The position numbers were made by a program, and so were the translations under genes. Below the pieces are notes generated by a model that did not search any database, had not been told where the DNA came from, and was given only the letters and a program-made list of their open reading frames with translations. 34,794 nt of DNA from assembly GCA_016282095.1 (NCBI GenBank), contig JAEEJW010000148.1, positions 1 to 34,794 of the forward strand, in the 5' to 3' direction. This DNA comes from Ruminiclostridium sp. (GTDB taxonomy: Bacteria > Bacillota > Clostridia > Oscillospirales > Ruminococcaceae). How positions within the stretch are numbered: the stretch's first letter is position 1; each line of letters begins with the position of its first letter. Positions 10,020 through 29,547 of this stretch are shown in pieces.

Positions 10020-10058
10020 TGAACGTCAACAAAAAATAATTAATAAAAGAGGTACTGT

Positions 10059-11624
10059 ATGTTATCAATTGATATTACCGACAAGCAGATAAGACTTGTC
10101 CGCGGCGCCCTCAACGGCAATAAGATCCGTGTGCTCGAAGTTGAGACACGAAACCTCGCAGCAGGCTGCATAAGCAACGGCTACGTTACCGATATCCCTA
10201 TGGTAGCGGGTGAGATAACCGATATTATTGCCACGAACAACATCAAGGACAAGGAAGCTATCGTCTGCATCAACTCCGGTTCTATCCTGTATAAGGATAT
10301 GACGATCCCCAAGCCCAAGAAGATCTCCAATTCAGCCGCTATCGAGTCCATGATACTCACCACAATGGGTATCACCAAAGAGTATAACATCTCTTACTCG
10401 ATAGTCGGCGAAACAAAGGACGAGAACGACCAGCCGGCTATCAAGCTGCTGGCGACCGCCTGCCCCCAGAGAATGGTTGACGGCTATATCAGACTGTTCA
10501 CTCAGCTCGGTATCAAGCTGCACCAGATCAACGTATCGAACAACTGTATCACACGACTGATACTCAACACTCCGAAGCTGGAGGGCTCGATGCCCCTCAT
10601 GCTGGTACAGATCGACAACGACTTTATCAACCTCAACCTTTATGAGGACAATCAGCTCACGCTGTCCAGATACGTCAGAGTCGATCCGTATGACTACAAC
10701 AACGATGAGGATTACATCAACCAGGCGGTCTATGACAACCTGTTCCGCACGCTGCAGTTCACATCTCAGCGCAAGGACGCAAAGCCGCTGAAGGAAATAA
10801 TGTTCTACGGTCAGGTAACGGACTTCATCTCCCTTTCCAACGCCGTATCGAACTTCAACGTTCCTTCGCACATACTCAACATACCCAATAACATCGTTAC
10901 ATTCTGTGACTTTGACTTCGCAGAGTACGCAAACGCGATAGGTGCCTTCTTCAAGGTCAGAAAGGACCTTGATCACGTTAACCTGCTGGACGCTTCCGCT
11001 GTTAAGGAGAAGAAGGGCGCCAATATGTTCTTCGTAGGCCTTGCCGCAGCATCAGTAGTATGTGCGGGTGCAATTCTCGGCGCAAAGCTTGTGTGTGACG
11101 GTATCGCAGGCGGCATCAAGACGGAAGCTGATGCGGTATACGCCGAAATACACAGCGATGCGAACGAAGAAAGACAGAGACTCCTTACCGAGAAGGAAGG
11201 CGTACTTACAAACGTAACCAAGTATGCATCCAACATTGAGGAAGCCGATCTTATCTTCAGAATGCAGCCGCAGGGACTTTCTTCGGTGCGTGACATACTT
11301 GTGGACACATTAAAGAGCGTTGATGAGGAAGCCATGATAATGGGCGACATCTCCATAAGTCAGTACGCACTCACAATGTCGGTACGCTGCTACAATATGG
11401 AGACGCCTACAAAGTATGTAAGAGCGCTCATTGATGCGGATTACTTCGACAACATCACTTACACCGGTTTTGCCGGCGAAGAAAACAAGTCCGAAGAGGA
11501 TGAAGAAGACGGACAACAGGCTGGCAGACGCAATGTACAGGTAGCCGAAGCCAAGGGCGATTATAACTATTCGTTCACACTGAATATGCTGCTCAGAGGA
11601 GGTAACGGCTATGAAATTAAATAA
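10059..11624 (+). CDS. PilM-PilN fusion, type IV pilus alignment complex
   Basis: A 521-residue protein whose first about 310 residues resemble PilM, the cytoplasmic actin-like component (LSIDITDKQIRLVRG at the start, DIPMVAGEITDIIATN, ending ANAIGAFFKVRKDL). Directly after comes HVNLLDASAVKEKKG, which resembles the short cytoplasmic NLLP-type tail by which PilN docks onto PilM. One membrane helix (about 322-345) and a periplasmic-type coiled region up to 521 follow. The length fits PilM plus PilN. A Glu/Asp-rich insert lies near 470-490. It ends 14 bases inside the pilO-like gene. The fusion assignment rests on domain order and the NLL motif. Confidence 0.8.
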   Translation: MLSIDITDKQIRLVRGALNGNKIRVLEVETRNLAAGCISNGYVTDIPMVAGEITDIIATNNIKDKEAIVCINSGSILYKDMTIPKPKKISNSAAIESMILTTMGITKEYNISYSIVGETKDENDQPAIKLLATACPQRMVDGYIRLFTQLGIKLHQINVSNNCITRLILNTPKLEGSMPLMLVQIDNDFINLNLYEDNQLTLSRYVRVDPYDYNNDEDYINQAVYDNLFRTLQFTSQRKDAKPLKEIMFYGQVTDFISLSNAVSNFNVPSHILNIPNNIVTFCDFDFAEYANAIGAFFKVRKDLDHVNLLDASAVKEKKGANMFFVGLAAASVVCAGAILGAKLVCDGIAGGIKTEADAVYAEIHSDANEERQRLLTEKEGVLTNVTKYASNIEEADLIFRMQPQGLSSVRDILVDTLKSVDEEAMIMGDISISQYALTMSVRCYNMETPTKYVRALIDADYFDNITYTGFAGEENKSEEDEEDGQQAGRRNVQVAEAKGDYNYSFTLNMLLRGGNGYEIK

Positions 11625-12600
11625 GGTAGAAAAGGTCATAGTTGTAATAATAGTATTGGGTCTGATCCTTGGACTCGGTATATTCATGCTGGTAAAGCCG
11701 AGCTTTGAAGATATCGGCAAGCAGCAGAAGGTTCTCGATTCCTATAAGACCGAGCTCAACGATCTTAACGCAAAACTTGCAAGGCTCGATACCATAGATG
11801 CCGATATCGATGAGCAGAAGACTCTCGCAAAGAAATATGAAACAAAGTTCTATCCTGACCTTACCACATACGAAGCATCCGAAATCGCTATGGCGTATCT
11901 TCAGGCGGCAAACCTTGAGGCACACACCATAAACATCACCCCGCTCTCTACCGTACAGCTCTCGCTTTCGTATTTTGCGCCCCCGGAGGTCGAATATGCA
12001 CTCAAGAGTTACGGTTCGGCAGCAAAGGATCCGGAGACTGAAGAACAGGTTCTTGAAGAGGGTCAGTTCAAGGATGGCAACAAGATTTACACTCTTACGC
12101 TGGATTCCGCCGCAAAAGTTACTATAACAGACGAAAACGGCGAAGAAGTGCAGAAGAGCAGATACACCGAAAATATGAAAAAGGTGTACAAGGCAGCGAT
12201 CTGCAGATATGTGGCTTCCAATTCCATATCACAGACAACAGGTCTTATTACTGCGACCTATGAAGTAAAAGGCAAGTATGTTGACTATATCAACTTCATC
12301 GATCATATCTATTCACTCGAAAGAGCGACTACGGTACCGAGTGTGATTATCCCTATGACATACACACCCAAGCCTGAAGAAGATGATGAGGATACAACAT
12401 ATATCGACGAAGCCGGATATGCTCATACAAGTGAAGAAGTATCACATATGAGCGACGTAGCACTTCCTATCGAGGATGATACTGAAGTTGTACAGACCAT
12501 AACGCTCAACTTCATCGCTGTAGAGCCTATGAAGGCCCTCAAGAACGTCGATGCCGACGGAACCACAATCGTTGTTGATCAGAGACCTGCCGTTTATTAA
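11611..12600 (+). CDS. PilO-like type IV pilus alignment protein
   Basis: A 329-residue protein with a short cytoplasmic tail, one membrane helix (about 8-28), a coiled coil (about 30-75) and an extracytoplasmic alpha/beta domain. This is the architecture of PilO, which pairs with PilN between PilM and the pilus. The coiled-coil part reads PSFEDIGKQQKVLDSYKTE and onward. An acidic segment (EEDDEDTTYIDE) near 250-265 is an unusual insertion, and the protein is longer than the usual 200 or so residues. The gene overlaps the pilM-pilN stop by 14 bases and has GGAGG upstream, so translation is probably coupled. Confidence 0.75.
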   Translation: MKLNKVEKVIVVIIVLGLILGLGIFMLVKPSFEDIGKQQKVLDSYKTELNDLNAKLARLDTIDADIDEQKTLAKKYETKFYPDLTTYEASEIAMAYLQAANLEAHTINITPLSTVQLSLSYFAPPEVEYALKSYGSAAKDPETEEQVLEEGQFKDGNKIYTLTLDSAAKVTITDENGEEVQKSRYTENMKKVYKAAICRYVASNSISQTTGLITATYEVKGKYVDYINFIDHIYSLERATTVPSVIIPMTYTPKPEEDDEDTTYIDEAGYAHTSEEVSHMSDVALPIEDDTEVVQTITLNFIAVEPMKALKNVDADGTTIVVDQRPAVY

Positions 12601-12611
12601 GGAGGGCAGTT

Positions 12612-15287
12612 ATGCTGAAATTTTTCTACAGGCTGAAAAGACGCGGAGGCGTAGTGCTTTTCGCCGTAATAGCGTTCATGACGCTGCTGATAACAATGGC
12701 GACTGTCGCCTACTTCTCGGCACGCGCATCGTTCAATACGGTAATAAGCAACTATGACTTCTCGCAGATGTACATATCCACGACCTCGGTCTCGGATATG
12801 ATCATCGATGCGCTGGCGGAGGATACATCCAAAGCCGGTGCTGACGCAACAAAGGGTCTTAACTACTTCAAAGGACTCAAGTCCAAAATTGAAGGCATGA
12901 TCACAGACACAGGCGGAGACCCTTCCAAAGCAGGCGCGACCCTTATCGGCGTATCCAATAATATTGCATACGCTGACAGGGACAATGTAAGCAAGATAAT
13001 GGTCGACGGCGCAAACAACGCCGTCGAGCCCGGCGTTATCGATGCGGTAAAAACAACTGTAAAACTCGAGAGTATAGTCAAGGATAAGCCCTCAAGCGGC
13101 ATAAATACCTACTATTTCACGATCACTACAGTCGGCTACTACCGCAACAATACCATAACCGTACAGGATTCGATCTACGCAGAAGCAGGCGTGGCATCTG
13201 CCAAGAGCACTCCTCTGTTCAGCACATTCTTCACGGCAACAGGTCAGCAGCTCAAGAACGGTGTGCCTTCTCACACAACGCGTGCCGTTATCATAGATAC
13301 ACAGCAGATCTCCGATAACGCATACTTCCAGAACGAATTCACCGTCTTCACCGGTGCGAACACCGACTGCGCATTCCTCGGCGGTATAAGGACAACAGGC
13401 GGTCTGTATCTCGATAAGGTACAGAACTATACGATCACCGCTCCCAAAAAGAACGGTTCCGGAGATGTTATAGAAAGACATGACTGGATAATCGGCGGTG
13501 ATATGTATCTCGGATCCAACATTACCCTCAATCTTAACGGCAATGATCTGTTCGTTCACGGTGACCTTTACATCAACAACGGTCATACACTTACGGCCGG
13601 AAATGTATATGTAGAGGGTAATATCTACTTCCTGAACGGTGACGGAAATATCAAGATTGAGAACGGTACGGACAGAATAAAGATCATCAAGGACGAGAAC
13701 GGAAACGATAAGATCGTAAAGAGCGGCGACGCCAACGGCGTATGGGTAAACGGCAATATCATCAAGTGCGGCGGTACCCAGAAGACCGGCAGCGGTACAT
13801 GGGCTGAAGGAAAAGCAACGATCGCTGATCTCGCCGGAAAGAATCAGAGCGATCTTACTATCGCTGATGAATTCGCTGCGATAAACGGACTTATAAATAC
13901 CATAACAGGTAATAACTGGTCCGGCTTCCTTAATACCGGCGGCGGTGGAAATACTCCTCAGATCAGCGGCGGTCCGCTCAGGATCAACGGCAGCACAAAT
14001 AATTCCAGTACTGTCGGAACCACTTTCAACTGGGGCGATTACGCTGTTCAGGTAGACGTACAGGACGAAACGGCAACAGAGTATGTAGACAAGATCCAGG
14101 CCATGACTGTTGACAATCTTCTTGATCCTACCGTAGACGGCGGTATGAAGAGAATCGAGTACGACAACTATTCAGCTGATGAGGTTTACTCCAGCGGCAG
14201 AGTCCTGACACTCAATTTCGACGGAATCGGCTCGGTTGCTAAGGGAAACCGTCTCCCGATAGGTATCGTGAACGGCGAGGAAGCGTATATAATCTATAAC
14301 GATACGGATAATATCTGGAACTCGAAGGATGTAGTTATAGAGCTTCCTTATGTCAAGGGCGGCTATATGCTCAAGTACAACGGTGCGATACCGTATATGG
14401 GCGGCGGCGGCGGAAATGTTACCTTTAAGATCAAAACTCCGAATGGGGCTCAGCTTGATGAAAACGGTCAGCCGATGTATATGACGGAGACCGTTGAAAA
14501 GGACGGCAAGCAGGTTGAACAGATCGCAAAGGATGCCAAGGGTAATCCGATACCCGTTCCGGAGTCTATGCCCATAGTCCTTGCAGCTAACTTTGACGAC
14601 GGTTCCGGCACCGCAACCGACGAATCCGGTTTCAACGCTTTCAGATGGACGGCAGCGCAGTCGAGCAATTCCGGTATGGTAACCGTTGAGCTTGTGGATA
14701 AGGATGATCCCAGCAAGAGTGCTACAGGCAATGTAGTATTTGAAATGGGAACATACGACAAGGACGGAAAATATGTTGCCTATGATCCTGCAAAGGCTGC
14801 GAACACCGAGGCCGTAACATACTGGGCAAAGGAGAAGGAGAAGGTCGGCACACTCAATCAGGTGACGAACATATCCAGTCTTCAGCCTTCCACTCCTCAG
14901 GGCAGCGATCAGTACAAATTCCTCAAGTCCGGCTCGAACGATATACAGTCTGATTACGACAACAAGATAATCCTCGTATCGAACAAGAACGGTGCCAAGA
15001 ACGCGTTCAACGCTACGGGCGGCGATTCCACATTCTGCGGTTATCTGTATGCTCCGAACGGCAGCTTCAATGCGGTACAGGATAAGGGTACTATGCCTCT
15101 GTTCGGCGGTATGATAGTTTCCGACTATAACATAAAGCTCGGCAGCTATCTCTACGGTGAACCCGATCCCGGCCTTATAGCGGCACTCGGAACCACTCTT
15201 CACAAGAAGGGCGGCAACAATAATTCCAATCCTACAACTGCTGAGACAACGTGGTACACCAACCTTGGAAAGAACTATTTCGGTTGA
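12612..15287 (+). CDS. Large PilX-like pilus-associated protein
   Basis: An 891-residue protein with an N-terminal positively charged tail (KRRGG) and one hydrophobic helix (about 14-36), like PilX-type minor components. It lacks the Gly-Phe cleavage site and Glu5 of true prepilins. Residues about 250-350 form Gly/Asn-rich short repeats such as GGDMYLGSNITLNLNG, GDLYINNG and GNVYVEGNIYF, which look like turns of a beta-helix. The C-terminus has FCGYLYAPNGSFNA and LFGGMIVSDYNIKLG, resembling the C-terminal domain of some PilX-like proteins. It lies between pilO and the prepilin genes, with GGAGGG before the ATG, and is probably a tip or adhesive component. Exact role unknown. Confidence 0.65.
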   Translation: MLKFFYRLKRRGGVVLFAVIAFMTLLITMATVAYFSARASFNTVISNYDFSQMYISTTSVSDMIIDALAEDTSKAGADATKGLNYFKGLKSKIEGMITDTGGDPSKAGATLIGVSNNIAYADRDNVSKIMVDGANNAVEPGVIDAVKTTVKLESIVKDKPSSGINTYYFTITTVGYYRNNTITVQDSIYAEAGVASAKSTPLFSTFFTATGQQLKNGVPSHTTRAVIIDTQQISDNAYFQNEFTVFTGANTDCAFLGGIRTTGGLYLDKVQNYTITAPKKNGSGDVIERHDWIIGGDMYLGSNITLNLNGNDLFVHGDLYINNGHTLTAGNVYVEGNIYFLNGDGNIKIENGTDRIKIIKDENGNDKIVKSGDANGVWVNGNIIKCGGTQKTGSGTWAEGKATIADLAGKNQSDLTIADEFAAINGLINTITGNNWSGFLNTGGGGNTPQISGGPLRINGSTNNSSTVGTTFNWGDYAVQVDVQDETATEYVDKIQAMTVDNLLDPTVDGGMKRIEYDNYSADEVYSSGRVLTLNFDGIGSVAKGNRLPIGIVNGEEAYIIYNDTDNIWNSKDVVIELPYVKGGYMLKYNGAIPYMGGGGGNVTFKIKTPNGAQLDENGQPMYMTETVEKDGKQVEQIAKDAKGNPIPVPESMPIVLAANFDDGSGTATDESGFNAFRWTAAQSSNSGMVTVELVDKDDPSKSATGNVVFEMGTYDKDGKYVAYDPAKAANTEAVTYWAKEKEKVGTLNQVTNISSLQPSTPQGSDQYKFLKSGSNDIQSDYDNKIILVSNKNGAKNAFNATGGDSTFCGYLYAPNGSFNAVQDKGTMPLFGGMIVSDYNIKLGSYLYGEPDPGLIAALGTTLHKKGGNNNSNPTTAETTWYTNLGKNYFG

Positions 15288-15301
15288 TAACAGAAAATGC
15301 C

Positions 15302-15327
15302 TTCCCTGCCGCGAAAGCGGCGGGGAA
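15302..15327 (+). other. Intercistronic GAAA-tetraloop hairpin
   Basis: An 11-bp stem (15302-15312 with 15317-15327, one G-T pair) is closed by GAAA. It lies between the PilX-like gene and the first prepilin gene. No T-run follows, so it more likely stabilises or separates mRNA segments than terminates. Confidence 0.55.
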
Positions 15328-15356
15328 AGCAAATAAAACGAAAGGAAAGCAACGTT

Positions 15357-16772
15357 ATGAGAAAATTGAATTTTTATAACAAAAAGGGCTTCACGCTTGT
15401 AGAATGTATCGTTGCGATCGCTGTTTTTGCTGTTATGACCTCCATGGTAATGATCATCATAAGCTCCGCCATAGACACGACAAGACAGTCTGTCAACGGT
15501 GAGCGTGACCTCAACCAGATGGTAGAGGCAGTTGAAAACGATCAGGCGATAAGAAAATACGATGCGGGTGATTCCCGTACCCTTGTGATGAGATTCGGCG
15601 AACCTACTTCCACAGACAAGGATCCCAATTTCTCCATCACTTACAGCACCACGGACGGCTATATGAACTATATGAGCTGCCCGAGATGCGGCTATATAGG
15701 AAGCCGGCTTGAGTTCATAAAGCATATTGTCGATTCCTATACATACAAGAATTCAAGCGATACCCTTAAAGACAAATACTCGTATTCCTACTGGTTCGAT
15801 CCGATACTCAAGGCGGATAACGGCAATGAGGCGGGAACGTACAATGTAGAAGGCGTTACCTTTGATTCAAAGGACAACGACGACGATACGAGAAAGGCAA
15901 ACTTCAACACACAACAGAAGAAGTTCGTAACGTATCTTAGAAAATTTGTATGCCCCAACTGTGAGCAGATCGTAGAGAACGGCGTCGGAAACGCAAACGA
16001 AGTACGTCCGCTGTACTGCCTGACTTGTGATAATCAGGCAAGTCCCTACAGTGAAGATGTACAGACCGGTAACGCTGCAACCAGTAAGGGCTTCCACTGG
16101 GATAACAAGACAGGCTCGTTCTACTGCAACAAGTGCGGCAGCTCATATGTTATCGAAAAGGGCATGAAGGAAAGGCTCGGCGCGGGCTCACAGTTCAATA
16201 TCGGCGGTATATTCCCGAACGCTATAAGATACGGTTCGATAGAATCTCCTGCGAACGATGATGTCAAGACATTTGTTGCTGCGGAAAATACTGCAGGCGA
16301 CGAACTGTCCAATTACAGCGTAAAGCTCAATGTTACCTCTTATGCTTCCACACTCCCGGATAAGTATCAGATCACAATAAGCAACCTTACATCCGCGGTA
16401 ACCAACAACAAGGACGTTACTTTCACATTCCAGCTTCCTCCGGGTTATATGATACCGACTATGGTCGATGCTTCGGATAAGACAAAGACCAAGCTCAACC
16501 TCGGTATGGTCAACGGTACTTCCGGTACACTTACCTGGAAATACACCAACGGCGCAGATGCTTCCGAGGGTTCGCAGATCACGCTGAAGAACGTAAAGAC
16601 CGGTACTACTCCGTCATTTACTTTCACACTTGTAAATGTGAAGAGCGGTAACTCTTTCGACGCGGACTATGCGGATGAAGGCGGTCTTGCGGATTTCTGG
16701 TTCAAGATCAAGGATACCAACGGTGCGTCCGACACCTTTACGGTACCGCGTACCTTCAAGACCAGCAGCTGA
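15357..16772 (+). CDS. Prepilin-like protein with four CxxC motifs
   Basis: A 471-residue protein with a class III prepilin signal, KKG^FTLVE, cleaved after Gly11 by prepilin peptidase, with Glu at +5 and a hydrophobic helix to about residue 37. The in-frame upstream start at 15297 is rejected because AAGGAAAG and the usual short leader support 15357. The body holds four CxxC pairs: CPRC (108-111), CPNC (199-202), CLTC (221-224) and CNKC (257-260). They look like zinc-ribbon halves or disulfide knuckles, rare in pilins. Residues about 320-465 form an Ig-like or DUF11-like beta domain (FTFQLPPGYMIPTM, SGTLTWKYTNG). At 471 residues it is far larger than a normal pilin. It may be a minor or tip pilin; the ligand is unknown. 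Confidence 0.8.
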   Translation: MRKLNFYNKKGFTLVECIVAIAVFAVMTSMVMIIISSAIDTTRQSVNGERDLNQMVEAVENDQAIRKYDAGDSRTLVMRFGEPTSTDKDPNFSITYSTTDGYMNYMSCPRCGYIGSRLEFIKHIVDSYTYKNSSDTLKDKYSYSYWFDPILKADNGNEAGTYNVEGVTFDSKDNDDDTRKANFNTQQKKFVTYLRKFVCPNCEQIVENGVGNANEVRPLYCLTCDNQASPYSEDVQTGNAATSKGFHWDNKTGSFYCNKCGSSYVIEKGMKERLGAGSQFNIGGIFPNAIRYGSIESPANDDVKTFVAAENTAGDELSNYSVKLNVTSYASTLPDKYQITISNLTSAVTNNKDVTFTFQLPPGYMIPTMVDASDKTKTKLNLGMVNGTSGTLTWKYTNGADASEGSQITLKNVKTGTTPSFTFTLVNVKSGNSFDADYADEGGLADFWFKIKDTNGASDTFTVPRTFKTSS

Positions 16773-16789
16773 CAGGGAGGTGATAAGTA

Positions 16790-17704
16790 ATGCAGCAGTA
16801 TTTCAGAAGACTTAAGCGCAAAAAAGGCTTTACTATCACCGAGCTTATCGTCGTTGTTGCTCTGGTAGGTATCATGATGGCAACGCTCACAGCGTTCTCC
16901 GGCCCTGTCCGTGATATGGTCAGAAACACAAGAGCACAGAATGATGTTCTTTCGATCAACAACATCATAGGCAACTATCTTGAGCACAATCTCTCCTACG
17001 CAAGCCAGGTAACTATCTGCGCAGGCTGGGATCTGATCCAGCACAAGGATGCTCTCAAGACAAAGTTTGACAGCCTTAAGAGCACCTGGGCAACGTCGAA
17101 TGACCGTCCCGCCGCAATAATCATACATTTCGAGAAAGGTGACAGCGATCTGAGAAACACCTTCCGGCTGTATGAGTATGATTCAAAATCTGAGCTTCCT
17201 ACTACGACAACAGAAATAGACGGTGTGTACTACCCGGTAATGGACAGTAATAATCTTGTTTTCCACAAGGAATTCTATAATGATTATTCGTTCGTTATTA
17301 CGGCAGATGACCTTATCTTCCACAATAACTACCGTGAGAAGGCTTATGCAAGACTTAATGTTTCCGCATATAAATTCGACGGTTCCATACAGAAATCTGC
17401 CGGTGTGGAGGCTTGCCTTGATCGCGGCGACGCAAAGACACACTATATGAATCTTGCAGGCGCTGCTCCGATCTCAGGCGGTGCAGGTGTACAGACCGAC
17501 CTCCTTACTTCCGGCCACTTCATCATTGGCGGTGTAGGCTCGGAGAGTGTGTTCTTCCCGCTCCAGAACATAAACGTGAGCGGCAATAAATACGAGTACT
17601 TCCGCGGTTATGAGGATCCGACAACACATAACATCACTTACGGCGATGATATCGTGATCTTCTACAACATCAGAAAGTACAGCTACGGCAAGAGCAGTTC
17701 ATAA
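16790..17704 (+). CDS. Prepilin-like protein
   Basis: A 304-residue protein with the prepilin signal KKG^FTITELIVVVALVGIMMATL: a short basic leader, Gly-Phe cleavage after Gly13, Glu5 and a long hydrophobic helix. The rest is an extracellular domain without a family that I recognise, with four-residue Thr runs near 136-142 and an acidic C-terminal part. GGGAGGTGATAAGTA precedes the ATG. It is the last gene of the plus-strand unit and is followed by a group of hairpins. It could be the major or a minor subunit; its size and position after other minor-type genes favour a minor pilin. Confidence 0.85.
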   Translation: MQQYFRRLKRKKGFTITELIVVVALVGIMMATLTAFSGPVRDMVRNTRAQNDVLSINNIIGNYLEHNLSYASQVTICAGWDLIQHKDALKTKFDSLKSTWATSNDRPAAIIIHFEKGDSDLRNTFRLYEYDSKSELPTTTTEIDGVYYPVMDSNNLVFHKEFYNDYSFVITADDLIFHNNYREKAYARLNVSAYKFDGSIQKSAGVEACLDRGDAKTHYMNLAGAAPISGGAGVQTDLLTSGHFIIGGVGSESVFFPLQNINVSGNKYEYFRGYEDPTTHNITYGDDIVIFYNIRKYSYGKSSS

Positions 17705-17716
17705 CAAAAACACAAA

Positions 17717-17785
17717 TGCCCCGCGGATCAAACCGCGGGGCAGGCGTTGAAGAGGGCGCACTTTCGTGTGCTCCGTTCAATGCCT
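17717..17785. terminator. Two hairpins at the end of the prepilin operon
   Basis: A 10-bp stem (17717-17726 with 17733-17742) is followed by a long interrupted hairpin: AGGCGTTGAA (17742-17751) with TTCAATGCCT (17776-17785), and inner GCGCAC/GTGTGC closed by TTTC. The plus strand lacks a T-run after the first stem. AAAAA follows the second near 17791. The minus strand has TTTGTGTTTTTG after the first stem, so it can also back up pilD termination. Confidence 0.6.
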
Positions 17786-17790
17786 GACAT

Positions 17791-17822
17791 AAAAATATCC
17801 CGGACAGCAATTGCTGTCCGGG
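17791..17822 (-). terminator. Terminator of pilD
   Basis: A 12-base perfect palindrome arm pair at 17799-17822 (CCCGGACAGC, AATT loop, GCTGTCCGGG). On the minus strand it is followed by ATATTTTTAT, 14 bases after the pilD stop. Confidence 0.8.
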
Positions 17823-17836
17823 AATATATACGGTTT

Positions 17837-18919
17837 TCAGCGCATGAATCCGAGATACCACGAGATGATCTGTGTACCGAACAGGAACGACGTGAAGATA
17901 CCGATGGAGAGATACGGTCCGAATACGACCTGACGTTTGCAGGTAACTTTGGTCACCTTGTCACCGGTAATGACTATCGAGATCCCGAACTTCGTGATAT
18001 CGGAAAGCTCCTCGCTCAGCATGGAGTTGAGAAGTGTGATATCAGGAGTGCCGTTCCAGAATTTCTCGTCAACACATTCCTTCTCGATATCGGACTCGCC
18101 TTTGAAGATGCTTCCGAACAGGGCCTCGGTCTTATCCGGCAGCACCGATATCCCCTCTTCTTTCTGGAGTTCGTACCATTTGGCGGCCACTTCGAGGGAT
18201 TTCTCCTTCGCAAGCTGCTTGGCTCCTTTGGGAACGGTCAGCAGTTCGATCATACCGCCTATCGCGCCAAGTATGATGCCGATAGCCGCCGCGGGTATTA
18301 TGTTCTTCCAGCCCAGCAGAAGTCCGGCAGCCGCCATGAGCTGCACATCACCGCCGCCCATAGCTCCGAACATCGCGAGTACAGCGAAAGGAACGGAAAC
18401 TGCAACGGCACCGATAAGGTGATCATACCACGGCATATCGTTGGTGAACACCGACATGATAGTTGCCGCGACGCCAAGAGCTGCCACGACTATGCTGCAT
18501 CCGTAAGGAATTTCCATACGGTCGATGTCTATGCCGCTTGCAACTACAAGCGCTCCGATCAGAACGAACGAGATCAGCAGGCTCAGCGAAAGTCCGAGTA
18601 CGACTACCGAAAGCGTGAATGCTATCGCCGTCAGGGTCTCGACTATCCAGTAGCGTGGCGATATCCTCGACTTGCAGTAGCGGCACTTTCCGCCGAGGAA
18701 TATGTAGCTGAATATCGGAACAAGATCGAGTGTACCGAGCTGATGTCCGCAGCTCATGCAGTGACTGCGGTTGTGGGTGCCGGAGATAGGCTCTTTCCGG
18801 GGCACACGGATTATGACTACATTCAGGAAGCTCCCGATCGCCGTCCCGAGTATAAAGGTCAGTATCAGAAATATGACCGTGTAGTAGGTCGGGAAGCGCG
18901 GGTCAAATATACTTATCAT
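17837..18919 (-). CDS. pilD: Type IV prepilin peptidase / N-methyltransferase with long C-terminal insertion
   Basis: A 360-residue polytopic membrane aspartic protease (A24A). It removes prepilin leaders at the Gly-Phe bond and methylates the new N-terminus. The N-terminal domain has the GSFLNVVIIRVP motif and both zinc CxxC pairs (C54/C57 and C79/C82). Catalytic aspartates are D131 (GIDIDRMEIP) and D191 (GGGDVQ). Between the helix after D191 and the closing FGPYLSIG motif (about 333-340) lies an insert of about 100 mostly polar residues (231-330). Normal family members have a short loop there. AAAAGGAG precedes the ATG, and the promoter is at 18952-18980. It is transcribed opposite to the pilus genes it serves, and divergently from pilB. 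Confidence 0.95.
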   Translation of the reverse strand: MISIFDPRFPTYYTVIFLILTFILGTAIGSFLNVVIIRVPRKEPISGTHNRSHCMSCGHQLGTLDLVPIFSYIFLGGKCRYCKSRISPRYWIVETLTAIAFTLSVVVLGLSLSLLISFVLIGALVVASGIDIDRMEIPYGCSIVVAALGVAATIMSVFTNDMPWYDHLIGAVAVSVPFAVLAMFGAMGGGDVQLMAAAGLLLGWKNIIPAAAIGIILGAIGGMIELLTVPKGAKQLAKEKSLEVAAKWYELQKEEGISVLPDKTEALFGSIFKGESDIEKECVDEKFWNGTPDITLLNSMLSEELSDITKFGISIVITGDKVTKVTCKRQVVFGPYLSIGIFTSFLFGTQIISWYLGFMR

Positions 18920-18951
18920 GATATACTCCTTTTAAAAATGTTCTTTAGCTT

Positions 18952-18980
18952 ATTTTAGCACAAATTTCATACAATATCAA
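18952..18980 (-). promoter_or_regulatory. Promoter of pilD
   Basis: On the minus strand TTGATA (18980-18975), a 17-base spacer and TAAAAT (18957-18952) give a good sigma-A match. Its start is about 25 bases before the ribosome binding site. The pilB promoter on the opposite strand is not clear. Confidence 0.75.
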
Positions 18981-19103
18981 CTGTTTTGCGATATTATTTC
19001 CGAAAAATTACCTGGGTGTCGTTTATGCCCGAAAAATATATAAATTCCCGCTTCGCACGGAACGGAAGGATACCGGGCGTGGGCGGTGAGCGGAGGTCTG
19101 CAA

Positions 19104-20792
19104 ATGAAAAATATCCCGATAGGTCAGATACTGCTTGAAAGCGGTTACATCACCAAGCAGCATCTGGAGGACGCACTCGTCAAGCAGAAGGAGACCGGCA
19201 AAAAGCTCGGTGATATGCTGCTTGAGCTCGGCTATGTCTCCGAGACACAGCTTGCTCAGGCGCTTTCCCAGAGACTAAAGGTGCCGTTCATCGATCTGAC
19301 GACTACAAAGATCGAACCGGAAGCTGTAAAGAAGATACCCGAGGCGGTCGCCAAGAAAAACTGCGTTATTGCGTATAAGATCAATAACGGCCGACTCTAT
19401 GTAGCAACGAACGATCCTGTAAACTTCTACATATTTGAAGAGCTGAAGATCCAGACAGGAATGGAGATAAATGCTCAGCTCGCCACAAGGTCGTCCATAA
19501 ATGAAGCGATAGGCCGTGTTTATTCGCAGGCTACCGTTACCAACGTTATGGGCGATATCGAAAAGGAATATGATGCCAACGCCGCTCTCATGGAGCAGCA
19601 GGACAACGGCTCCGAAGAACGTATAGATAACGCGCCGGTAGTTAAGCTCGTTAATACGATCATTGAGTCCGCTTATCGTGACAGAGCTTCCGATATCCAT
19701 ATCGAGCCCTTCAAGGACAGAACCCGCATACGTTACCGTATAGACGGTGAGTGCGTTGAGAAGATGGCAGTAAAGCCCGCCGTTCATTCCTCGCTCATCA
19801 CACGTATCAAAATTCTCGGCGGTATGAATATCGCCGAAAAGAGAATACCGCTGGACGGCCGTTCCAGTGCGGTCATCGACGGTGTTACGCAGGACCTTCG
19901 TATTTCGACCATACCGACCGTTTACGGAGAAAAGTGCGTTATCCGACTTCTTGCAACCGGTGACGAAAAGGCAAGAAAGATCACCGACCTCGGTATGACG
20001 GATTACAACTATGAGATGTTCAAGCAGATAATCCGCTGCCCCAACGGAGTTATGCTGGTTACAGGACCTACAGGTTCCGGTAAGTCCACGACTCTGTATG
20101 CAACTCTCGGTGAGCTTTCAAAGCCGAACGTAAACATCGTTACCGCAGAGGACCCTGTCGAAAAGAAGATCGACGGCGTAAACCAGTGCCAGATGAACGA
20201 AAAGGCAGGCATGACCTTCGCGGCCGCACTGCGTTCTATACTCCGTCAGGACCCGGATATAGTCATGGTCGGTGAGATCCGTGACGGTGAGACCGCCGAT
20301 ATCGCTATCAGAGCGGCTATCACAGGACACTTGGTGCTCTCGACACTGCATACGAACGATGCCGCTTCGACTATCCTGCGTCTCGTTGATATGGGCGTTG
20401 CGCCTTATATGGTGGCGACTTCGCTGATCGGCGTTATCGCACAGCGACTTGTAAAGCTGCTCTGTGAGGAATGCCGCGAAAAGATCCTGCTGACAGATCC
20501 CGCGGATCTGAAGCTCGTCGGAAAGACCTCACCGGTTGAGATCTACCAGCATCACATCGGCGGCTGCCGTGCCTGCCACAATACCGGTTTCAGGGGCAGA
20601 ACCGCTATCCATGAGATCATCGTTTCCAACAACAGCATCAAAGAGCTTATCGCAGCCAATGCCACAGCCGAGCAGATCGGCATCAAGGCACGCGAGAACG
20701 GTACCAGACTTCTGCGTGACAACGTTACGGACATGGTGCTTGCAGGCAAGACCACAATGGACGAGCTCGTAAAGGCAACATATTCCGTATAA
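19104..20792 (+). CDS. pilB: Type IV pilus extension ATPase PilB
   Basis: A 562-residue hexameric ATPase that powers pilus assembly. It has an N-terminal MshEN domain (about 5-145, with GQILLESGYITKQHLEDAL) and the secretion ATPase core. Walker A is GPTGSGKSTT (about 321-330); Walker B is DPDIVMVGEIRD (about 383-394). The Asp box begins near RASDIHIEP and the His box is ITGHLVLSTLHTNDA. The tetracysteine metal site CEEC...CRAC, typical of extension ATPases, is present at about 453-490. MshEN domains bind c-di-GMP in several homologues, so pilus assembly could be nucleotide-regulated. A GTG at 19086 is in frame, but GGAGG before 19104 decides the start. pilT follows 75 bases later. Confidence 0.95.
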   Translation: MKNIPIGQILLESGYITKQHLEDALVKQKETGKKLGDMLLELGYVSETQLAQALSQRLKVPFIDLTTTKIEPEAVKKIPEAVAKKNCVIAYKINNGRLYVATNDPVNFYIFEELKIQTGMEINAQLATRSSINEAIGRVYSQATVTNVMGDIEKEYDANAALMEQQDNGSEERIDNAPVVKLVNTIIESAYRDRASDIHIEPFKDRTRIRYRIDGECVEKMAVKPAVHSSLITRIKILGGMNIAEKRIPLDGRSSAVIDGVTQDLRISTIPTVYGEKCVIRLLATGDEKARKITDLGMTDYNYEMFKQIIRCPNGVMLVTGPTGSGKSTTLYATLGELSKPNVNIVTAEDPVEKKIDGVNQCQMNEKAGMTFAAALRSILRQDPDIVMVGEIRDGETADIAIRAAITGHLVLSTLHTNDAASTILRLVDMGVAPYMVATSLIGVIAQRLVKLLCEECREKILLTDPADLKLVGKTSPVEIYQHHIGGCRACHNTGFRGRTAIHEIIVSNNSIKELIAANATAEQIGIKARENGTRLLRDNVTDMVLAGKTTMDELVKATYSV

Positions 20793-20867
20793 TCGGCATG
20801 ATCGTAGGATCAGAGAAACAATCCCGACTTTGATAAGTCATATTAAAATCAGGACAGGAGTAAAATT

Positions 20868-21947
20868 ATGAGCAGCAACCTCACGATCGACATTAACCAG
20901 ATACTTGACGAAGTAAGAGCTATGGGCGCGTCCGACCTTCATTTTACAGCAGGTCTGCCGCCAATCGTAAGACTTCACGGTAACATCAAGAAAGTCTCGG
21001 GCTATCCGGACTGCACCGAGCCGATCATCGTTAACGTAATAAACCAGATCACATCAATCAAGCATAAGCAGACCATTCAGAAGGGTCTTGACGCCGACTT
21101 CTCGTATGTATCGAACTCGGGTCACAGACACCGTGTCAACGTGTACAGACAGCGCGGCTACCACGCAGTTGCTATGCGTCTGCTCCGCAACGATATCCCG
21201 ACGCTGAAAGATCTGTATCTGCCGGATATCCTCGGTGAATTCGCTCTCAAGCCCCGTGGACTCGTTCTCGTAACAGGTCCTACAGGTTCGGGTAAGTCCA
21301 CCACACTTGCGGCTATGATCGACCATATCAACCGTCAGAAGAACTGCCACATCATCACTATCGAGGACCCGATCGAGTATCTGCACAACCACAAGCAGTC
21401 CATGCTCAACCAGCGTGAGATCGGCGTCGATGTAGACAGCTTCGCAGGCGCTCTCCGTGCAGCCCTCCGTGAGGACCCGGACGTTATCCTCGTCGGAGAG
21501 ATGCGTGACTTTGAAACTATCAACGCAGCGGTTACTGCGGCTGAAACGGGACATCTCGTTCTTTCGACACTTCATACCACCGGTGCGGCTGATACCCTCG
21601 ACCGTATCATAGACGTTTATCCGCCTCACTCCCAGGGTCAGATACGTTCCCAGCTCGCGAACTCCATGGTCGGCGTTGTTTCGCAGACACTCTGCGCTAC
21701 CACGGACGGAAAGGGCCGTGTTGCGGCACTCGAGATCATGGCGGCAACAGACCCGATCAGAGCTATGATCCGTGAAGGTAAGATATTCCAGATCCCCAGC
21801 TCTATCGCAACAGGTCGTAAGGACGGAATGTTCTCTCTTGACCAGGACCTCGCAAGACTCGTCCGCAACGGTCGTATCTCCGACGAGCTTGCCCTCTCCA
21901 GATGCCAGGATCCTACCGAGTATAAGCGCTTCCTCACCATGGGCTGA
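20868..21947 (+). CDS. pilT: Type IV pilus retraction ATPase PilT
   Basis: A 359-residue ATPase that drives pilus retraction. It has ASDLHFTAGLPP near the start, Walker A GPTGSGKSTT (about 136-145), Walker B DPDVILVGEMRD (about 203-214) and the His box TGHLVLSTLHTTGAADT. The C-terminal AIRAMIREGK corresponds to the AIRNLIREGK motif needed for retraction, which separates PilT from PilB; it also lacks the tetracysteine site. Length fits the family. A CAGGAG site lies 8 bases before the ATG. It is probably co-transcribed with pilB, and a strong terminator follows at 22069-22108. Confidence 0.95.
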   Translation: MSSNLTIDINQILDEVRAMGASDLHFTAGLPPIVRLHGNIKKVSGYPDCTEPIIVNVINQITSIKHKQTIQKGLDADFSYVSNSGHRHRVNVYRQRGYHAVAMRLLRNDIPTLKDLYLPDILGEFALKPRGLVLVTGPTGSGKSTTLAAMIDHINRQKNCHIITIEDPIEYLHNHKQSMLNQREIGVDVDSFAGALRAALREDPDVILVGEMRDFETINAAVTAAETGHLVLSTLHTTGAADTLDRIIDVYPPHSQGQIRSQLANSMVGVVSQTLCATTDGKGRVAALEIMAATDPIRAMIREGKIFQIPSSIATGRKDGMFSLDQDLARLVRNGRISDELALSRCQDPTEYKRFLTMG

Positions 21948-24638: not shown

Positions 24639-27600
24639 TTATTCGAGCCAGCCGGCATTATCGCCCATAGACGCGGCGAGAGATTCGACGGTCTGAATAT
24701 TCGAGCAGTCGGTGGCATCCGCGGTCATTACCTTGCCGTCGATCATCACGAACAGTGTACCCTGCCTTATGGCGGTGCAGACGTAGGGGGACTTGGTCTC
24801 GTAGAGCATCAGTTCACCTGTCTGTCTGAGGCTGCTGCCGGAGAAGGTCACTATTCGCACGACTTCGGAGAAGCCGTCGAAATAAACCGTCGGCACAGCT
24901 ATGATATCGCCGTTCTCGCTGACAGAGATGAAGGCCGGGTCTGTCTCCGCATCGCTGGCGAGGTATTTGAGATTGTCGGCGTCAGTCTTTTCATCAAGGC
25001 CGATGACTGTGGAAGCAGTCTCTTTCAGAGCGCCGCTGTAGCTGTACAGCGACAGTTTCAGACCTGTGCGGTCGCCGCTTTCGTCACATTCAGCCGCCAG
25101 TCCGGCAAGTCCGCTGCCTGCTGCGATAAGCTTTTCGCCGTAGAACGCCGATGTCGGTGCCGGAGTCGAAGCGGGTTCCTCGCCCGACATATCGAAGCCG
25201 TACAGCATTACCGATGAGCTGTTCTGTGCCGCGAGGACGTAAGCTGTCGAAGCATCCGATGCCCACGCCAGAGACTCGGGTTTTTCACCCTCAACGCCGG
25301 TGGTCGAGGCGTTGTCTCCCATGGCAGCGATGATTCCGCCGTTCCTGTCGGCGCCTATGAAGGCTTTGCCGTTCAGACAGTCGCCGGAGAACGCTTCTCC
25401 CGCGAATACCCGGGCGTTCTCGGCTTTGAGGTCAGCGGTGATATCCACCGCATAGGTTCTGTTGTTGTCCGCAGCGAGTATAGTGAGCCCACCGTCAGAG
25501 TTCACGAATGTGGCATTGCCGCCGTATATATCAAGCAGGCCTGTGCCGCCTATCTCGCCTATCACGGTGAAGCCCGCGAACTCGCTTCCCGCGAGCCTTA
25601 CTATATCGACAGGAGCAGGAGCGTCAGCAGTTGAGCTGTGCGGAACGGCAGTGCCGTTCACCTGTGCATGGGTCACTATAACAGGCTTGCCGGCTACAAT
25701 GCAGATATCCGCGAAAGTTCCGTCAAGAGAGTAGGGCTCGATCGCAAATCCGCCGTCGAATATGTCTGTCCAGACTTTGGCAGAGGCTGTGCCTGCGCCT
25801 GTCTGCGAAACGGCATAGATTACGCCGTCCAGGACTGTGAAGCCGAGGAACTCACTGCCTTCACGGGTTTTCAGTGTGACAGTCCCCAGTTCTACGGGCG
25901 CTGCCGGATCGAGGGATACCATTCTGACGGTACCCTCATTATAAATGTATGCTATGTTGGCGGTCTGGAGATATCTCTTTGTCAGTGTCGGAGTATAGGG
26001 CCTTGCCGAGGCGTTCATGTACTTTATATCATACGCTGCCGCAGGAACGTTCTCTCCTGCCGCAGTTATCTCGTCATAGGACGCGAAAGCAGCAAGTATG
26101 TCCTTGCTTTCGGTCGGCACAGTGACCGCAGGAGCCGCGATCTCTGTGGTCTGCGGCTCTGACGCCGCGGAGGCGGACACCGGAACTGCGGGATCGGCTG
26201 CGGGCTTGTCCTGTTTCGGAAGGAACTTCATTGCACAGGCTCCGCCGATCAGCAGCACGGCACAAACAGCGCAGAATATCATCTTGCCGTTATTTATGCC
26301 CTCGACATATTCATCGTCATCGACAAAATGCTCGTTGCCCTTGTAACGTTTGCGGGGTTCCTCGGGTTCAAAGGGTTCTTCCGGTTCTTCCCGTGCAGCC
26401 GGCATTGACGCGGAAACAGTCTCGCCGGGAGTGAAGGGCTGTTCTCCGGTTTCCGGAGTTTCAGGTTCAGCGGGAGCGGCAGGTTCTTCCTCATGCTTCT
26501 CACCGGATACCTCGAACTGTACCGTGTCGTGTATCTCTCCGGGGGTGAAGCGCATCGGAGCTTTTCTGGTCACGGGTACGTCGGGTTCCTGCACTGCCGG
26601 AGCTTCGGCCTCTGTTTCCCCGGTAACCGTTTCTTCAACGGTTTCGGTATTTTCGGCTATGATTTCTTCCGCATCGGGAGCGGTTTCTTCTTCGGCAGCT
26701 GCGGGTTCTTCGTCAGCGAAATGCACCACAAACGGCACAGAAGTATCTGTTTCTTCTTCGTATTCCTCCGCTTCCGTCGTGTCGGCTTCTTCCGCAGCCG
26801 GTTCGTTGTCGTCCTCGTCATCGGCGTAATGTACTTCAAAGGGCAGAACTTCTTCCTCCGCATCTTCGGAGACGATTTGTTCCGGCTCCGGAGTTTCCGC
26901 ATCGTTTCCGTCGTCCTCATCGGCATAGTGGACCTCGAACGCAGGCATTTCCGGTTCTTCGTCATCTGCGAAGCGGCCGTCGGACGCGGATATCTCATCG
27001 GTTTCGTCGCTGTCAGCATCTTCTTCGTCGTCGGTTACGATATCATCGCTATCGTCGTCGATATGGAGATAGCTGTCTGTGAAATCGGGTATATATACGG
27101 GGCCTGTGTGCTCCTTGATCGTCAGCGGTACATCAGGCACGGACTCCGGCTTGTCCCCGACCTCAAATACAGGCGCGGAAACTCCTTCGGCGGACTGTTC
27201 CGGCTGTGCTGCTTTGTCGTTTTCCTCCGTGGCGGCAGATGTGAAAAGCTGTGTATCCGGAGTTTCCTTTCCTGCGCCGGTCCATATCGGAGCCTTTATG
27301 CCGTAGGTCGAAGAGGCGCTTTCATTCAGCCCCTCATTCTTATTATCGAGGCCTTCAAGTATCTGTGTCACCGACATATCGTAGCCGCGGTGATCCTCGG
27401 TGTACGAAAAATCGTCAAGTATCTGCGTAACGGAAAGAGAGGCATTCTTTTTCGCGGGTGTTTTCGCGTCAACGGACAATTCAGGCTTGCTGTCTGCGCG
27501 GAAATCTCCTGTGAAAACGGGCTTTTCGGGTTCTGCGGATCTGGTCGGTCCGGGCGTGGACATAACCGCGAACGGGTGTTCCTGCATATCGGAGCTGCCG

Positions 27601-29414
27601 AGTTTCGGGAACGGCATTTCGAGCTGCTGTGTGCTTGCAATTGAACCGGTATCCGGTCCGGGCTCCGGAGTCTTCTCGTCAGGCTCTGTTTGTTTGCTGC
27701 CGTGAAAAGCGGGTTTTGCCGGTGTTGATTCAAAACCGATATCACGAGCATAGATAGCGGCAAACGGATCTACCGCTTCTCCGGCGGCTTCGGTATCGGT
27801 TTTCAGCGCGATCTCGGCCGAACGGAAAATGTCGGACTCTCCCCGCTTATGAGGCATACCGCTTCTTGTTCCTATAATATCGCTCAGGCTTTCGGGTTCT
27901 TTTGAAAGCGCCGCTGTACGGCTGCGCCTTTCTTCTTTTGTATAAGTTCTGCGCGGTTCCGTCAGAGCGGGTGCTTCGGTCTTTTCCGGAACAAAGGGCT
28001 TCCGGGGCTCCGCAGCTGTGGTTTCAGGGAGGGGAGCGGGCTCCTCGTCCGGTATCCGAATTAACGGGCTGTATGCTTCAGGCGGTCTGGGCGGCTCGGT
28101 TCTTTCCGGAACGCCCACGGGTGCCGGAGCGGTGCTTTCGCTGTGCATTTCCTTTTCTATGGCGAGCTGGAGCTCGGACTTCTGCGGTTTATGTTCTTCG
28201 CGCAGACGCCTTCTGGCAGGGCGCTCTCTCGGAGTTCCGGAGAACAGGCCTGCGCGTTCATGGGCGGCTTCGATCTTTTCTTTCGCTTTCAGTATCTCAC
28301 GGCGCTGCTTCACAGCCGTCAGCATCTTGTAGTAATCCGCTTCGGTCAGCGGCGATTCTTCAAGCAGCGTGATAAGGCGCTCCCTGGTAAGGTGCGGGTT
28401 CTTTTCGATCTCGCGGTAAGCGCTGTTGCTTATTCTCGTGTTTCCGATAAGGCGCAGGAATTCGCTGCCCTTCAGCTTCTCCGCAGAGACAACGGCTATG
28501 AATGTCTTTGCGTTCAGCGGCAGCGGCGAATTGCTTTCATCACCGTTTTCCGGGAACTCATCCATTGCCGATTCCTCATCAGGGACTGCTTTATCCGCTG
28601 CCGATTCGTCCGCGAAGACCTTTGCGGATCCGGCAGTTTCTTCCGTCTGTTCTGTGCCGGTTTCTTCGTGAGCGGATTCTTCTTCGGTGGTTTCTTCAAT
28701 CTGCTCGGATTCGGATTTCTCGTTCTCCGGCTCTTCTTCGGCGGATTCTTCGTTCTCCGGCTTTTCTTCGGCAGTCTCTTCCACCGGTTCGGATTCGGTT
28801 TCCACGGTATCCGGTTCTTCGGTCACAAGCTCGGCTTCGGCAGCTTCCGCTTCCGGTTCGGGCTTTTCCTCTTCGGCGGCGGATTCGTCAAATCCCCTGT
28901 ACCGGTCTTTCAGATCCTCCGGAGCGCGGTATGCCGCAGCTGCGGCAGTGAGCGGGGCATAATCGGGGCCGAGGCGGTTCATTGCGGAGTCCAGCTTGTC
29001 ACCCACTGCATTTTCGGACATTCCTGTAAGCAGGGATATCTCGTGCTTGCCGTAGCCGAAAGAAGCGGATATGGCGAAAACCAGCCTCTCCACATCGGGG
29101 AGAGCCGATGTGACGCCGAATATGCCGGGGAGAGTTCTCGTCACGCCCGAAGCTTTGTATTCCTTAAGTGTGTCAACTATATTTTTTGTGAGTTCGTGGA
29201 CGAGCCAGGATCTGAGGTGCTTTTCGTCCTTGATCTTCGAAATGCCGCGATAACCTTCCATAATTGCGGAAGAGACGGATTTTTTGGCCGCCGTGTCGCT
29301 TTTCAGCGAGATGAGGGCGGTGGTGTAAAGTTCGTCGGTGATATCAAGACACAGCGATTCATAAGCGGCTTTGCTGCCGTTTCTGGCTCTTTCGAGTTTT
29401 TCGGAAAATGTCAA
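24639..29414 (-). CDS. Giant membrane protein: sigma-like domain, acidic linker, one TM helix, beta-propeller-like domain
   Basis: A 1591-residue protein. Residues 1-150 resemble an ECF sigma factor: a region 2-like part (about 14-88, DELYTTALISLKSDTAAKKS) and a region 4-like HTH (about 105-148, LPDVERLVFAISASFGYGKHEI). A Glu/Pro-rich acidic stretch (about 178-290) and a small helical domain (about 300-372) follow. The long disordered linker has SVTQIL twice (about 659 and 680) and VHYADE-type repeats three times (about 822-900). One membrane helix lies at about 1043-1063. Residues about 1100-1591 resemble secreted beta-propeller domains (start LAAFASYDEI). The sigma part would be cytoplasmic and the propeller outside. 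The start is TTG (29414) behind AAGGAG, nine bases away; no nearby ATG exists. Sigma activity is unproven. Confidence 0.75.
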   Translation of the reverse strand: MTFSEKLERARNGSKAAYESLCLDITDELYTTALISLKSDTAAKKSVSSAIMEGYRGISKIKDEKHLRSWLVHELTKNIVDTLKEYKASGVTRTLPGIFGVTSALPDVERLVFAISASFGYGKHEISLLTGMSENAVGDKLDSAMNRLGPDYAPLTAAAAAYRAPEDLKDRYRGFDESAAEEEKPEPEAEAAEAELVTEEPDTVETESEPVEETAEEKPENEESAEEEPENEKSESEQIEETTEEESAHEETGTEQTEETAGSAKVFADESAADKAVPDEESAMDEFPENGDESNSPLPLNAKTFIAVVSAEKLKGSEFLRLIGNTRISNSAYREIEKNPHLTRERLITLLEESPLTEADYYKMLTAVKQRREILKAKEKIEAAHERAGLFSGTPRERPARRRLREEHKPQKSELQLAIEKEMHSESTAPAPVGVPERTEPPRPPEAYSPLIRIPDEEPAPLPETTAAEPRKPFVPEKTEAPALTEPRRTYTKEERRSRTAALSKEPESLSDIIGTRSGMPHKRGESDIFRSAEIALKTDTEAAGEAVDPFAAIYARDIGFESTPAKPAFHGSKQTEPDEKTPEPGPDTGSIASTQQLEMPFPKLGSSDMQEHPFAVMSTPGPTRSAEPEKPVFTGDFRADSKPELSVDAKTPAKKNASLSVTQILDDFSYTEDHRGYDMSVTQILEGLDNKNEGLNESASSTYGIKAPIWTGAGKETPDTQLFTSAATEENDKAAQPEQSAEGVSAPVFEVGDKPESVPDVPLTIKEHTGPVYIPDFTDSYLHIDDDSDDIVTDDEEDADSDETDEISASDGRFADDEEPEMPAFEVHYADEDDGNDAETPEPEQIVSEDAEEEVLPFEVHYADDEDDNEPAAEEADTTEAEEYEEETDTSVPFVVHFADEEPAAAEEETAPDAEEIIAENTETVEETVTGETEAEAPAVQEPDVPVTRKAPMRFTPGEIHDTVQFEVSGEKHEEEPAAPAEPETPETGEQPFTPGETVSASMPAAREEPEEPFEPEEPRKRYKGNEHFVDDDEYVEGINNGKMIFCAVCAVLLIGGACAMKFLPKQDKPAADPAVPVSASAASEPQTTEIAAPAVTVPTESKDILAAFASYDEITAAGENVPAAAYDIKYMNASARPYTPTLTKRYLQTANIAYIYNEGTVRMVSLDPAAPVELGTVTLKTREGSEFLGFTVLDGVIYAVSQTGAGTASAKVWTDIFDGGFAIEPYSLDGTFADICIVAGKPVIVTHAQVNGTAVPHSSTADAPAPVDIVRLAGSEFAGFTVIGEIGGTGLLDIYGGNATFVNSDGGLTILAADNNRTYAVDITADLKAENARVFAGEAFSGDCLNGKAFIGADRNGGIIAAMGDNASTTGVEGEKPESLAWASDASTAYVLAAQNSSSVMLYGFDMSGEEPASTPAPTSAFYGEKLIAAGSGLAGLAAECDESGDRTGLKLSLYSYSGALKETASTVIGLDEKTDADNLKYLASDAETDPAFISVSENGDIIAVPTVYFDGFSEVVRIVTFSGSSLRQTGELMLYETKSPYVCTAIRQGTLFVMIDGKVMTADATDCSNIQTVESLAASMGDNAGWLE

Positions 29415-29443
29415 TTCTTCCCACTCCTTATTATATTACACTC

Positions 29444-29538: not shown

Positions 29539-29547
29539 ATTATACCA
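29539..29547 (-). promoter_or_regulatory. Extended -10 promoter of the giant sigma-like gene
   Basis: The minus strand reads TGGTATAAT (29547-29539), an extended -10 element. The -35 region (TTTTAT) is poor, as is common for such promoters. Confidence 0.55.

Follow-up and report, generated by a model that had tools for sequence, protein, structure and literature searches.

A degenerate ECF sigma domain fused to a membrane beta-propeller protein in Ruminiclostridium, probably retained as a captive pseudo-sigma

What role is left to a sigma factor that is joined in one polypeptide to a membrane receptor? The question is raised by a gene of the window (the whole stretch of 34,794 nucleotides that was analysed), which codes a protein of 1591 residues. 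The gene has leuS upstream and the gene of an SLH-domain protein downstream. The only match of the protein in its own genome is itself, and 66/71 genomes of the genus, its own included, match the protein or parts of it; this conservation and the dN/dS ratios given below rule out a chance open frame. Pfam gave no match at E<=1, thus no direct match to PF09826, and the ECF matches in NCBIfam are all below threshold. Neither an RsgI N-terminal domain (E<=1) nor a receiver domain was found in the Pfam and NCBIfam scans. A phage-defence protein was also considered and rejected, PADLOC giving no match. The features are the following:

24639..29414, minus strand: gene of the 1591-residue protein, stop codon included, with a TTG start
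29424..29429, minus strand: ribosome-binding site AAGGAG, before the TTG start
29539..29547, minus strand: extended -10 element TGGTATAAT, preceded by CTTTTATTTTT
28950..29414, minus strand: degenerate ECF sigma domain, residues 1-155 (sigma2 ~1-90, sigma4 ~103-152)
28866..28937, minus strand: anti-sigma-like segment, residues 160-183, containing APEDLKDRYRGFDES, assigned by position and a PxxL match
28518..28865, minus strand: first acidic linker, residues 184-299, of low model confidence
28239..28517, minus strand: conserved helical domain, residues 300-392, delimited by alignment and AlphaFold2 (pLDDT mostly 90-97)
26280..28238, minus strand: second acidic linker, residues 393-1045 (653 residues, 25% D/E)
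26280..26354, minus strand: juxtamembrane motif RKRYKGNEHFVDDDEYVEGINNGKM, residues 1021-1045, common to most fused proteins
26223..26279, minus strand: single membrane helix, residues 1046-1064 (hydropathy 2.24, the only candidate)
24675..26093, minus strand: presumably extracellular beta-propeller, residues ~1108-1580, a divergent relative of PF09826

A preliminary description had recognised one chain with a sigma-like amino terminus, a single membrane helix and a carboxyl-terminal propeller, and this layout is borne out by the minus-strand frame, hydropathy, profile comparisons and AlphaFold2. Other parts of that description need adjustment. The segments resembling sigma regions 2 and 4 do belong to an ECF sigma fold, but regions 2.2 and 4.2 are degenerate. 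The very long linker is acidic as described, but it is in fact two linkers flanking the helical domain of residues 300-392. The propeller does lie within residues 1100-1591, where it occupies ~1108-1580, but the membrane helix stands before residue 1100.

The sigma fold at residues 1-150 is supported both by structure prediction and by profile comparison with ECF sigmas. The match to NCBIfam TIGR02954 (residues 8-87, E=1.9e-8) reaches 34.3 of 188.5 bits, far under the model cut-off, and profile-profile alignment with 18 intact ECF sigmas is strong (99.8%, E=1.5e-28, 149 columns). AlphaFold2 models residues 1-160 with a pLDDT of ~97. Foldseek searches of the PDB with the model of residues 1-404 gave SigW and other ECF sigmas as best matches; the best for the sigma part has E=8.6e-3 (none <0.001), a probability of 1.00 and a TM-score by target of 0.76, and the matches listed for this model apparently all fall on the sigma part, judged by their names. 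A sigma2-sigma4 fold is present in the window protein according to these models. Downstream of it, helices are predicted at residues 166-170 and 174-183 of the anti-sigma-like segment. Position and the PxxL match make this segment the probable counterpart of a VPExLxPxNI-type motif found at the amino terminus of the partner protein in two-gene relatives (see below). The sigma domain would touch the anti-sigma-like helix, a contact that we infer from AlphaFold2 output other than coordinates or PAE.

The domain of residues 300-392 has no match in Pfam or NCBIfam and nothing convincing in the PDB by sequence (best E=0.013). It was found in 10/295 genomes of the order, 9 of them from the genus of the window, with weaker matches in loci L038 and L043 of the family, so that it appears mostly restricted to this genus. 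No other part of the protein is as well conserved in the 8 pairs compared, and the dN/dS of the domain is 0.03-0.08 in the 6 of these 8 pairs that could be scored. The linkers of fused proteins share short words that may be docking motifs: YKG...F occurs in 16/17 fused linkers examined (the commonest word of shuffled linkers reaches 4). The word VTQI was seen in 12/17 of the same set, and the acidic linker of the window protein has a repeated PFEVHYAD-like word.

The propeller is modelled by AlphaFold2 with pLDDT 90 and pTM 0.87. The recognisable Foldseek matches of this model, which have low TM-scores, are what we take to be beta-propeller proteins, and a PDB search by sequence gave nothing at E<=1. 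The carboxyl-terminal sequence used as a family query matched in only 3/197 genomes, its own included, and the propeller link therefore rests on profiles. Aligned by hhalign with PF09826-bearing relatives, the propeller scores 100% over 466 columns (E=3e-53). That alignment holds 15 partner proteins, and the four scanned (L036, L037, L043, L052) all match PF09826. Among the genus relatives scanned, L035 matches PF09826 (E=4.2e-11) while L053 and the fused L086 do not. Kinship with PF09826 thus runs through relatives. A standard PF09826 member is rejected by the lack of a direct Pfam match in the window protein. The Pfam model finds 0 matches in the genome of the window; 37/71 genus genomes have one. 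Strong PF09826 proteins (E<1e-120) were observed in 11/71 genus genomes (G240, G235, G204, G211, G208, G203, G199, G206, G200, G209 and G202), and among these 11 the intact sigma of the two-gene group is found only in G235 and G211.

The origin of the protein is revealed by its relatives. The family search with the sigma part gave a match in 92/197 genomes, its own included, nearly always in a frame of 150-250 residues. Wider stretches were taken from 20 of those 92 genomes. As most of these 20 rank among the best matches, the intact sigmas are not a random sample; within the genus, loci from 61 of the 66 genomes with a match were examined. At 21 sigma loci (19 of the 20 and two from the genus) a frame of >600 residues follows within 100 bases downstream and bears at its amino terminus a variant of VPExLxPxNI. 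The twentieth locus, L035, has the same two-gene plan. In related genera the two-gene relatives code an intact ECF sigma and then a one-helix membrane propeller protein, and since sigma and partner are separate there, the window protein is, by this comparison, the product of two genes that were fused. The intact sigma presumably has its anti-sigma in this partner. The ancestry first proposed for the protein, a one-chain version of a transmembrane sigma/anti-sigma pair, agrees with this finding of the same parts as two adjacent genes.

Four states coexist within the genus: split genes, fused genes, partner genes without sigma, and an additional intact sigma copy. The last is found in 2/71 genus genomes, G235 (E=8.5e-73) and G211 (E=2.6e-71), the best other match having E=7.7e-29. 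A tree of 61 partner proteins, built by a quick method without bootstrap, groups 19 fused proteins on one branch (SH-aLRT 100) together with L100, in which a contig end truncates the upstream part. The neighbouring branch carries ten two-gene loci and L115 (SH-aLRT 88), and 14/15 rows labelled sigma-less form another branch (SH-aLRT 99); L038 and L043 have long branches and are placed unsurely. The sigma-less branch keeps domain 300-392, the helix and the propeller. The sigma domain is therefore dispensable in some species, and these three parts can work without it.

The fused sigma domains have lost the residues by which a sigma factor reads promoters and meets the core enzyme. Both recognition-helix arginines are present in 18/18 intact sigmas, 0/20 fused and 0/24 split ones. 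The two aspartates of region 2.2 are each found in 18/18 intact sigmas, in 3/20 and 0/20 fused ones and in 0/24 split ones each. When conserved positions are defined as those kept in >=17/18 intact sigmas, 10 of them are charged, and here the residue is retained in 7.5% of cells in the 20 fused and 23% in the 24 split sigmas; for the 31 that are hydrophobic or small the figures are 62% and 69%, respectively. The mean net charge of the recognition helix is +5.9 in 18 intact, -0.05 in 20 fused and +0.5 in 26 split sigmas. In the window protein it is -2, so that the basic sigma4 recognition helix expected of a promoter-reading sigma is missing from the sequence. Acidic region 2.2 contacts core RNA polymerase. 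By sequence this region too is depleted in the window protein, where 1 residue of 15 is acidic (mean of the intact group 4.3, of the fused 2.2). Note that these counts leave out six unrelated ECF paralogues (L035_32, L104_11, L133_7, L102_13, L103_5 and L100_7), that L038 and L043 stand apart from the split group in the residue and promoter-motif counts but inside it in the charge count (n=26), and that L098, of which only the sigma part is visible before the contig end, is counted as fused.

Controls set the limits of these comparisons. Recognition-helix net charges are +2 to +6 in six unrelated ECF sigmas. They are +3 to +5 in six single-chain sigma-membrane proteins, of which five belong to the genus and the sixth to another genus of the family; tethering alone therefore does not erode the recognition helix. 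The charge of one unrelated intact sigma is as low as +2 and falls inside the range of the fused forms (-3 to +2). Region 2.2 of another intact-looking one contains just 2 acidic residues, close to the mean of 2.2 in fused proteins. A net charge of at least +3 is kept by 6/26 split sigmas. The promoter motif described next is kept in L043 among these six and is absent in L038 and the rest, and therefore charge and motif are not linked everywhere.

The genes of intact sigmas are preceded by TGCAACAAAA and then CACT. The pattern TG(C/A)AACA-N16-18-CACT was found upstream of 17/18 intact genes (shuffled mean 0.01), a count that is partly circular as the motif was derived from this set, and in which the match at L044, one of the 17, lies partly in the start region and is possibly due to chance. 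The independent parts of the evidence are the absence of the motif from other groups, locus L043 and a genome scan. The pattern has 0/24 occurrences in split, 0/20 in fused and 0/15 in sigma-less loci, the last count leaving out L100 and L115, where a contig end makes the upstream part doubtful. The two-gene locus L043, whose sigma is intact and which also bears the domain of residues 300-392, retains the motif; L038 is without it. A stricter pattern scanned in 52 genomes was present at the sigma operon in 13/19 genomes with an intact sigma; these 19 genomes had six further matches vs two for the reversed control, and the 33 other genomes had 6 vs 6. The motif probably serves self-regulation and, at the stringency of the strict pattern, its own operon seems to be the main target of the intact sigma. 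The genome of the window has 0 strict matches. The strong ECF-type motif TGCAACAAAA-N-CACT was noted upstream of the intact sigmas at L036-L054, L114 and L125, the sigmas of L036 and L052 having a TGCAACAAA-type promoter; among the best-ranked papers listed on beta-propeller and anti-sigma, no description of this motif for sigmas with a PF09826-type partner was found.

Fused genes have instead an extended -10 element. TGnTATAAT, first noticed on the fused set and then counted there, is found in 18/20 fused (shuffled mean 0.24), 7/18 intact, 4/24 split and 0/15 sigma-less loci. A CTTTT box stands before a looser extended -10 in 13/20 fused and 12/24 split loci.

The fold itself is under purifying selection. 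The dN/dS of the fused sigma domain is 0.06-0.19 in 7/8 close pairs, the eighth not being computable, and zero gaps were found in 8/8 pairs. The fused sigma domain is therefore not decaying, and the same ratios and gap-free alignments rule out a decaying pseudogene.

The sequences thus support a fusion, the loss of promoter- and core-facing residues, the absence of the promoter motif with an extended -10 in its place, and purifying selection on the sigma fold. The explanation that we consider probable is that the window protein is a membrane receptor derived from a two-gene operon of an ECF sigma and a beta-propeller anti-sigma, in which the sigma was fused to its restrainer and is now a captive pseudo-sigma. 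Degenerate split forms suggest that degeneration preceded fusion: the operon would have lost its transcriptional output first and its gene boundary later, the sigma fold being kept for another purpose. In the present protein the propeller would sense an outside signal, with the sigma fold remaining clamped on the anti-sigma-like helix that follows it. Held on a long acidic tether, the pseudo-sigma would be a protein-docking or autoinhibitory head, and output would pass through this head and domain 300-392 and not through sigma-directed transcription. On this reading the captive pseudo-sigma has ceased to select promoters, and its present use is probably the docking of a partner protein. A more specific formulation, to which we give an even chance, likens it to a pseudokinase: having lost promoter recognition and its autoregulatory motif and been fused to its own receptor, it would be under selection as a non-transcriptional signalling module together with domain 300-392, which would be a new domain on the cytoplasmic side.

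Release of an active sigma was one mechanism first envisaged. In a one-chain sigma/anti-sigma protein of this kind, an outside signal would trigger proteolysis in or near the membrane helix, freeing a sigma with altered promoter specificity. The layout does resemble that of IutY, a substrate of Prc and RseP (PMC5411451), and of ECF52 (PMC5826349); the sigma fold is conserved, and the same genus and family also have single-chain sigma-membrane proteins whose sigma motifs are intact. The loss of the recognition-helix arginines (0/20) and region 2.2 aspartates (3/20 and 0/20), together with the presence of the promoter motif in 0/20 fused genes and of its strict form at 0 sites in the genome of the window, makes this mechanism unlikely. 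The fallback offered with it, a scaffold, comes closer than release of an active sigma. Taken strictly, as a non-signalling structural or wall-proximal adaptor whose sigma fold only caps the amino terminus, it agrees with the long acidic linkers and with the sigma-less branch that retains domain 300-392, helix and propeller, but strong selection on the sigma domain and domain 300-392 suggests specific contacts and leaves it improbable. A partner switch like that of PhyR, in which the pseudo-sigma would titrate an anti-sigma and free another active sigma, is very unlikely: the Foldseek matches include PhyR, in which NepR is the anti-sigma bound by the sigma-like domain, and the genome of the window has 20 matches to the intact-sigma profile, its own included, but this genome has 0 PF09826 proteins by the Pfam model, its best other ECF sigma is distant (E=8.8e-19 vs 2.6e-71 and 8.5e-73 for the two true copies in the genus) and the window protein has no receiver-domain match.

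PhyR nevertheless offers a parallel to the captive pseudo-sigma, as a case of the sigma fold reused for protein binding in place of promoter recognition. By Foldseek and residue counts the window protein has, as expected of a PhyR-type protein, a sigma-like fold without promoter-reading residues; PhyR differs in being a soluble response regulator of Alphaproteobacteria without membrane helix.

Among transmembrane systems, SigI/RsgI had been put forward as a precedent. It shares with the window protein the transmembrane restraint of a sigma and an outside sensor, but it consists of two proteins, and no RsgI match appeared in the family scans of the window protein. Nearer precedents than SigI/RsgI are Tt-RpoE1/Tt-TolB among two-gene systems and, for a single chain, IutY and ECF52. 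The partner part of IutY is FecR-like and is not known to include a propeller. In Thermoanaerobacter tengcongensis, the ECF sigma Tt-RpoE1 is directly followed by a one-helix protein annotated TolB, whose amino-terminal residues 1-39 bind the sigma, and Tt-RpoE1 transcribes its own gene in vitro (PMC3397946). This is the plan of the two-gene relatives described here; unlike the window protein, the pair is two proteins with an active sigma, and the Tt-RpoE1 promoter tGTTAC-N16-CGTC differs from the motif of the intact relatives (PMC3397946). One-chain sigma/anti-sigma proteins are known as IutY, ECF48, ECF52 and ECF53 (PMC8999054, PMC5411451 and PMC5826349). IutY of Pseudomonas putida (ECF243) resembles the window protein in joining a sigma, an anti-sigma and a membrane segment in a single chain, but its active sigma is released by Prc and RseP (PMC5411451, PMC8999054). 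The ECF52 protein SCO4117 of Streptomyces coelicolor is likewise a single chain, with a sigma, a membrane region and a carbohydrate-binding domain; it differs in that many genes change expression on its knockout and that a putative DNA motif has been reported for it, and ECF52 has a zinc finger and is described as exclusive to Actinobacteria (PMC5826349). The window protein matches the IutY/ECF52-type plan in that a single chain comprises the sigma, a putative restrainer, the membrane helix and a domain outside.

Single-chain sigma/anti-sigma proteins are thus known, and the degenerate yet conserved form looks new. Among the best-ranked papers listed on pseudo, degenerate or inactive sigma and on beta-propeller and anti-sigma, none was found to report a protein that joins a degenerate sigma to its own propeller receptor, and PF09826 led to one listed paper, on a pipeline by its title. 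If the captive pseudo-sigma reading is true, it describes a route by which a transcription factor becomes part of a receptor. Intact two-gene, degenerate two-gene, fused and sigma-less forms are found in one family, so that the order in which promoter motif, DNA-reading residues and gene boundary were lost, and the function that remains, are directly testable. For bench work the intact systems also offer a clear ECF promoter motif, which is apparently self-targeted.

The frames L188:1161-2936 (minus strand), L191:538-3315 (minus strand) and L192:1104-3053 (minus strand) code single-chain proteins that combine intact ECF sigma motifs with a predicted membrane helix; further such frames lie in L189 and L190. 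The L188 protein has two membrane-helix candidates and a carboxyl-terminal leucine-rich-repeat region, the L191 protein ends in DUF5050, and the L192 protein, from another genus of the family, has a carboxyl-terminal region without assignment. Going by their sequences, proteins of this type are a better fit than the window protein to the idea of a tethered working sigma. The L188 gene is flanked by two TIR-like genes (60-1088 and 3042-4004, both on the minus strand); Pfam TIR_2 was found in the first, which the second resembles. Elsewhere in the window, positions 8826-21947 of the plus strand hold a series of genes for a type IV pilus or for type II secretion, with T2SSF, a PilM match just under the cut-off, N_methyl and two T2SSE ATPases.
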